Positions 317-494 of a DNA stretch of 44,879 nt are shown here, piece after piece. A program made the position numbers and the translations under genes. The notes beneath the pieces are model-generated. The model was not told the origin of the DNA and did not search any database. It worked only from the letters and a program-made list of their open reading frames with translations. This DNA comes from Patescibacteria group bacterium. GTDB lineage: Bacteria; Patescibacteriota; Patescibacteriia; UBA1558; GWA2-36-10. The stretch spans positions 1 to 44,879 of the forward strand of contig JAQUKX010000007.1 of the NCBI GenBank assembly GCA_028718865.1, in the 5' to 3' direction. The first letter of the stretch is position 1, and the number at the start of each line of letters is the position of its first letter.

Positions 317-353
317 AAAAAAACGCTTTTCTTTTCAAACGCTAAGAAAAGCG
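317..353 (-). terminator. Intrinsic terminator directly before the comM start codon
   Basis: On the minus strand CGCTTTTCTT (344-353) pairs perfectly with AAGAAAAGCG (324-333), a 10-bp stem with a 10-base loop, followed by seven T (317-323) and then immediately the ATG of the ComM-like gene. Its 5' arm is also the 3' arm of an alternative long stem with 445-459, so the two structures exclude each other. Confidence 0.8.
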
Positions 354-459
354 ATCTAGCCTTATCTTTTCTCAAGGCCCCACGCCCCAGAGAAAAAATA
401 AAAACTAACCGTGCCTAACCGTCAATCGCTGACGGCGCTCTCTTATCGCTTTTCTTAGC
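317..459 (-). promoter_or_regulatory. Leader RNA with alternative terminator/antiterminator folds upstream of comM
   Basis: A transcript starting near 459 (7 bases past the -10 box) would begin with GCTAAGAAAAGCGAT (445-459), exactly complementary to ATCGCTTTTCTTAGC (341-355). This 15-bp closing stem encloses about 90 nt with further helices: CCGTCA/TGACGG (420-436), AGAGA/TCTCT, and GCCTT/AAGGC. Forming the closing stem uses up the 5' arm of the terminator at 324-353, so the layout is that of a transcription attenuator or riboswitch in which a stable folded domain keeps the gene on. No start codon for a leader peptide is seen, and I do not recognise the fold as a known riboswitch class. It could instead be a short standalone sRNA ending at the terminator. 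Confidence 0.65.
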
Positions 460-465
460 TTTTCT

Positions 466-494
466 ATATTATTCCTCTGGCCAAAAATTGTCAA
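466..494 (-). promoter_or_regulatory. Sigma70-type promoter for the comM leader
   Basis: On the minus strand TTGACA (489-494) and TAATAT (466-471) are separated by exactly 17 bases. The -35 box overlaps the stop codon of lspA. The predicted start is near 459, the first base of the 15-bp leader stem. Confidence 0.75.

Follow-up and report, generated by a model that had tools for sequence, protein, structure and literature searches.

A conserved comM leader in Patescibacteria is probably a transcription attenuator controlled by a trans-encoded small RNA with further targets among the competence genes

The window, by which we mean the whole stretch of 44,879 nucleotides of contig JAQUKX010000007.1 from a Patescibacteria group bacterium, carries at one end the 5' part of a ComM/YifB gene (comM). 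The part in the window shows the N-terminal ChlI domain (PF13541, E=3.9e-30), and the comM orthologue of a related genome (G011) has ChlI, Mg_chelatase and Mg_chelatase_C. The untranslated leader between lspA and comM is the subject of this analysis (Table 1). A sequence-only reading had described here a consensus promoter, a transcript whose first 15 bases pair exactly with a segment further downstream, and a 10-bp intrinsic terminator formed by that same 3' arm, with a seven-U tail touching the start codon of a ComM-like gene; every one of these elements was found again. Arms A and B are exact reverse complements of each other over 15 nt, and the terminator stem pairs CGCTTTTCTT (353-344, within arm B) with AAGAAAAGCG (arm C) over 10 bp. 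The leader has a predicted folding energy of -56.9 kcal/mol, against -37.1 +/- 3.3 kcal/mol for shuffled sequences (z = -6.0; 0 of 200 shuffles).

Table 1. Elements of the comM leader in the window.
Feature	Position	Strand	Remarks
-35 hexamer TTGACA of the comM promoter	494-489	minus	relatives have TTGACA at the equivalent place before comM
-10 hexamer TAATAT	471-466	minus	17-nt spacer to the -35 hexamer; consensus in relatives TAAGAT
Arm A, GCTAAGAAAAGCGAT (RNA form AAGAAAAGCGAU)	459-445	minus	forms the antiterminator as its 5' strand; first of two predicted sRNA target sites
GAGAG	442-438	minus	complementary to CUCUC immediately 5' of the sRNA seed
Conserved core, CGGUUAGUUUUU	411-400	minus	complementary to the sRNA 5' arm GAGACUAACC
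Arm B, ATCGCTTTTCTTAGC	355-341	minus	shared by both folds, as 3' strand in the antiterminator and as 5' strand in the terminator; identical in sequence to the sRNA seed
Arm C, AAGAAAAGCG	333-324	minus	forms the terminator as its 3' strand; second of two predicted sRNA target sites; adjoins the start codon
U7 tract of the terminator	323-317	minus	abuts the comM ATG at 316-314
comM (YifB/ComM-like), 5' part	2-316	minus	ORF cut by the contig end

The leader is kept upstream of comM in about 13 of the 17 comM-bearing genomes of the family (Candidatus Komeilibacteria, Patescibacteria), with the elements in this order: promoter, arm A, variable hairpins, the core GGCAYGGGUUAGUUUUUU, a hairpin, arm B, arm C and the start codon. 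Both stems are conserved in these relatives. The A:B stem is paired in 98.3% of the cells of the family alignment, with three pairs altered on both sides, and the B:C stem in 96.5%, its changes being mostly wobbles. The compensatory changes that the sequence-only reading had suggested looking for are thus present in the antiterminator, while covariation in the terminator was not in excess of shuffles. A covariance model of the leader gave strong matches solely before comM, one per genome, and solely in this family; its weak class-wide matches (G073, G118, G297 and others) stand without a downstream comM, resemble chance hairpins and were discarded. When 85k genomes were scanned for the exact pattern of the core, eight matches fell in Parcubacteria/Komeilibacteria-type contigs and seven in unrelated taxa, the latter judged from taxonomy to be chance; there was also a single viral match. 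On these comparative grounds, we conclude that the leader before comM is genuine and conserved, an RNA switch with an on and an off state.

Departures from this layout were also seen. Three genomes (G003, G014 and G017) have lost the leader and have a short 5' UTR with arm C alone, as if the stretch from A to C had been deleted; the leader of G013 has lost arm B. Neither the number nor the sequence of the spacer hairpins that separate arm A from the core is fixed across leaders. In G001, G004 and G019 (L041, L038 and L040), hairpins of the form CCCGC...GCGGG are inserted between arm A and the core, and G001 has a further copy 3' of arm C; they look like a mobile small repeat. Between the core and arm B, a G-rich GCGGG(G)GCU hairpin loop (375-395 in the window, minus strand) is conserved in most leaders and is not accounted for by the pairing with the sRNA described below. 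A mini-ORF reading of the core (AUG-GGU-UAG) was dropped because several leaders carry ACG, and interpreting its GG...UUUUUG as a transcription-pause signal, though conceivable, is unnecessary. Elsewhere in the order, families f4-f6 have comM with another leader or without any of these sites; in families f3-f6 (L051, L053-L057), the comM promoter is followed directly by a different hairpin and a U-tract. Attenuation of comM may therefore be older than the present leader.

It was through weak matches of the leader model beside ssb that arms A and C were recognized as copies of a motif spread over the genome, AAGAAAAGCGAUUUU. The motif is also present where comEC, dprA, comFC, ssb, a Xer-like recombinase and a small number of further genes begin. 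Exact copies of GAAAAGYGATTTT number one to six in most genomes of the family, with almost none for the reversed control. The exact motif sites fall into two classes: gene start regions and, on the opposite strand, a small gene divergent to ssb. Among 30 exact sites examined outside that small gene, 29 are in the sense orientation, between -20 and +100 nt of an ORF start, and one lies within the same distance of an antisense ORF start. The start-site class comprises dprA (AUGAAAAGCGAUUUU, MKSDF), comFC, the Xer-like recombinase, a secreted LTD protein, a CHAP protein, RayT-like Y1 transposases, and GIY-YIG and DUF559-like proteins (these last two and comFC named by eye). Since the sites lie in different reading frames, before or after the AUG, they do not reflect a protein motif. 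A scan of the nearly complete 877-kb genome to which the window belongs (G000) placed seed-complementary sites at comM, ssb, dprA, comEC, the Xer-like gene, the LTD protein and RayT; the Pfam names obtained for targets were ComEC (PF03772), DprA, SSB, Xer-type integrase, LTD and Y1_Tnp. Six start regions of this genome match the motif with two mismatches or fewer, whereas 500 permuted motifs gave 0.42 on average and never more than 4; the dprA and RayT sites are left out of the six solely because the start caller missed them. In the family as a whole, a site with no more than one mismatch was found at comEC in 11 of 18 genomes (shuffled mean 0.06) and at dprA in 14 of 17 (shuffled mean 0.03).

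Several of the genes bearing such sites deserve mention. In G000, comEC is split into two adjacent genes (C1:76767-78921), one with the Competence domain and the other a metallo-beta-lactamase-like ORF recognized by eye; the first half bears the seed site AAGTAAAGCGATTTT. Downstream of ssb (C3:45597-50535; L133, L201), the same genome encodes a C39-like peptidase lipoprotein, a pair of short membrane proteins and a large secreted protein with LTD/PKD, and seed sites stand at the starts of C39-like, membrane and LTD/PKD genes 3' of ssb in many relatives. These proteins are possibly unrecognized DNA-uptake or DNA-binding surface factors. An exact seed site was also observed at the start of small genes of mobile appearance, namely RayT-like genes (L135, L137, L144, L145, L162), a GIY-YIG gene (L151), a DUF559-like gene (L155) and genes that by eye resemble four-helix bundles (L224, L226, L227), as though selfish genes had placed themselves under the competence sRNA.

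The small gene divergent to ssb is an unannotated RNA gene of about 75 nt, made up of a promoter, a 5' hairpin, a seed and a terminator. In G000 it is located at C3:44849-44772 (minus strand), the comM leader being on C7. Alignment of 15 family genomes showed an exact TTGACA in all 15, a -10 box, the 5' hairpin, the invariant CAAAAUCGCUUUUC and the terminator hairpin. The seed, about 15 nt long and invariant, is single-stranded between the 5' hairpin and the terminator, and the motif of arms A and C is its exact complement. Twelve of 20 base pairs change on both sides, a number reached in 0 of 500 shuffles. The covariance model built from this alignment recovered the gene in G004, G015 and G011, which had not been used in training, bringing the total to 18 family genomes, and also matched beside ssb in other families of the order; in a sample of the rest of the phylum it had no match at E <= 0.001. 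Weak class-wide matches (G233, G338, G153 and others) were without the seed and were set aside. An Rfam scan of the locus gave no match. The FinO/ProQ domain (PF04352) was found in 0 of 35 genomes of the order, in a search that did find the E. coli positive control. The sequence-only reading had offered, as an alternative, an sRNA ending at the comM terminator; that is not the main story, the sRNA being encoded on another contig (C3).

Leader and sRNA fit each other at more than the seed. The sRNA seed of G000 pairs with arm A over a 12-bp core, and the duplex of seed plus GAGAG reaches -29.9 kcal/mol; the conserved core of the leader (GAGAG…GGGUUAGUUUU) can pair with what remains of the sRNA 5' part. 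The sRNA 5' arm GAGACUAACCU pairs with the leader core over 10-13 contiguous bp in 12 of the 12 genomes that have both partners, and the sRNA CUCUC with the leader GAGAG. In several genomes the two partners have changed together. In G013 both are altered (leader AAUGUUAGU, sRNA GCUAACAUU), and the own pair scores -11.7 kcal/mol against -7.7 to -9.0 kcal/mol for foreign ones; the GAGAG site changes together with the sRNA in G012 (GAGGC/GCCUC), in G009 (GGGGGC/GCCCUC) and also in G011. A genome of another family, G021, has its own complementary pair, at -18.5 kcal/mol against -12.8 or weaker. Summed over genomes, cognate energies were matched by 7 of 5000 permuted pairings; the seed side drives this result (8 of 5000) and the arm-core side alone is weak (388 of 5000), and since the genomes are related, neither these nor the covariation counts are independent. 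When arm A and the core were masked in silico, arm C, otherwise free or in weak pairs, joined arm B to make the terminator in the minimum-energy fold of 11 of 11 leaders. The two stems, the sRNA gene, the shared motif, its complementarity to the seed and the covariation in trans are all features of the sequences themselves.

From these data we propose, with a probability of roughly 0.8, that the comM leader is an attenuator operated by a trans-encoded sRNA that also targets other competence genes. When the sRNA is absent, arm A of the nascent transcript would capture arm B immediately on its synthesis, so that no terminator forms and comM is transcribed. When it is present, its seed and 5' arm would bind arm A, GAGAG and the GGGUUAGUUUU core; arm A is synthesized first and B about 90 nt later, which provides a time window for sRNA action, and given the high stability of the A:B stem, action would depend on the sRNA binding in time. 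Arm B, thus freed, would form the B:C terminator, and RNA polymerase would halt immediately before the start codon, leaving the terminated leader transcript as a by-product. Arm C, beside the AUG, would offer the seed another site. It resembles in this the sites at comEC, dprA, ssb and comFC, at which a duplex covering the start codon would block translation. We infer that the sRNA is expressed and that termination takes place in the cell, and the sign of control is taken to be repression from the position of the target sites and the logic of the folds. As the seed matches the comM leader as well as the starts of comEC, dprA and comFC, one sRNA probably silences natural transformation in these bacteria. 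We also consider it likely, if with somewhat less assurance than the attenuator, that a single ssb-adjacent sRNA is a master silencer of transformation throughout this patescibacterial order, blocking the start codons of uptake and recombination genes and reaching comM through a chromosomal leader that has evolved an internal copy of the seed and with it an intrinsic terminator responsive to an RNA encoded in trans, maybe with no need of a ProQ-type chaperone.

Other explanations were weighed. The sRNA might act at translation only, on arm C and the other start codons, with the A:B/B:C switch otherwise regulated or unregulated. A start-codon site alone is what most targets have, and some comM genes (those of G003, G014 and G017) have kept just arm C; however, the extended complementarity through GAGAG and the core is found at arm A, not at arm C, and covaries with the sRNA, so that we regard this explanation as unlikely. 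The sequence-only reading had favored a riboswitch or an attenuator of a type it did not recognize. The attenuator is upheld by the conservation, the covariation and the mutually exclusive folds. As a metabolite or ion riboswitch, the leader would have its aptamer in the domain from A to B, with the ligand stabilizing A:B and turning comM on, and indeed a conserved core lies between the closing stem and the terminator, and a P1 3' strand shared with the terminator is the layout of an ON switch. The Rfam scan of the leader, however, gave nothing above threshold (the best match was PyrR, at 20.6 bits against a threshold of 54; the weak PyrR, PyrG_leader and microRNA matches reflect topology or composition only). 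Moreover, the core elements match the sRNA and change alongside it in G013, G012 and G009, the spacer hairpins are free to vary, and the arm motif is shared with genes that do not have the domain. Because no Rfam family reached threshold and complementarity to a trans-encoded RNA explains the supposed aptamer, the riboswitch idea is unsupported and in our view very unlikely; a metabolite is probably not what controls the switch.

It is just as improbable that GAAAAGCGATTTT is the site of a DNA-binding repressor near competence promoters. Genes that share a motif usually form the regulon of a transcription factor, and the motif is close to several promoters, but it lies downstream of them with no constant spacing, overlaps start codons or falls inside them in different reading frames, and is almost always in the sense orientation relative to its target; it is also non-palindromic, and a repressor would leave both arm B and the complementarity of the core to the sRNA 5' arm unexplained. 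Finally, an ordinary bidirectional or lspA terminator combined with chance repeats, as the location between lspA and comM and the commonness of terminators might suggest, is scarcely credible given the leader's own promoter, the three arms conserved family-wide, z = -6 and the complementarity in trans.

The proposed sRNA-operated attenuator recalls two known strategies. In Legionella pneumophila, the sRNA RocR pairs with the 5' regions of the ComEA, ComEC and ComF mRNAs and thereby silences natural transformation (PMC7973641). RocR is 66 nt long, carries a 6-nt antisense sequence in its 5' stem-loop and needs RocC, a protein with a FinO/ProQ domain (PMC7973641, PMC9674577). Like RocR, the sRNA described here would be a single multi-target RNA complementary to the 5' regions of com mRNAs, its predicted targets being comEC, comFC, comM, dprA and ssb. 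Unlike RocR, it has a seed of about 15 nt, exposed between two hairpins rather than in the 5' stem-loop, comes from an order in which ProQ was not detected, and would act at comM through an additional attenuator. Its seed layout, and a search of 35 genomes of the order that found no ProQ, place it outside the RocR family.

Attenuators switched by antisense RNA are known mainly as cis-antisense plasmid systems and devices of synthetic biology. In those of the pT181 type, the leader is ON by default, and an antisense RNA binding its 5' part causes a terminator to form before the gene (PMC3753616, PMC8383071). RnaG-icsA and RNA-beta are further antisense attenuators (PMC3753616, PMC8383071), RnaG being a chromosomal or virulence example that is cis-encoded (PMC8383071). 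The comM leader resembles the pT181 type in its mutually exclusive antiterminator and intrinsic terminator. It differs in that the antisense RNA of the pT181 type comes from the opposite strand of its sole target, whereas the sRNA here comes from another locus and has many predicted targets, and in that arm B of the leader copies the sRNA seed. With the sRNA encoded elsewhere, the system falls outside the cis-antisense attenuator class. In pneumococcus, the CiaR-controlled csRNAs restrain competence via a competence mRNA, comC (PMC4507080). Their target is a signal-peptide gene, while the targets predicted here belong to the uptake machinery. We know of no comparable attenuator among the csRNA targets.

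Many Patescibacteria carry competence genes (PMC6744442), and Saccharibacteria have been shown to undergo natural transformation (PMC10633639). A literature search on Patescibacteria, competence and small RNA found no paper on sRNA control of transformation in this group. The present analysis names a candidate repressor and supplies its seed and a list of targets, all open to testing, and the list hints at possible new DNA-uptake factors among the secreted LTD, C39 and CHAP proteins. In our best model, the comM system works like RocR and a pT181-type attenuator combined, and is a member of neither class. If this is true, the RocR strategy would have originated independently in a very distant lineage, and the comM leader would be a case, on a natural chromosome, of an attenuator that responds to an RNA encoded in trans.
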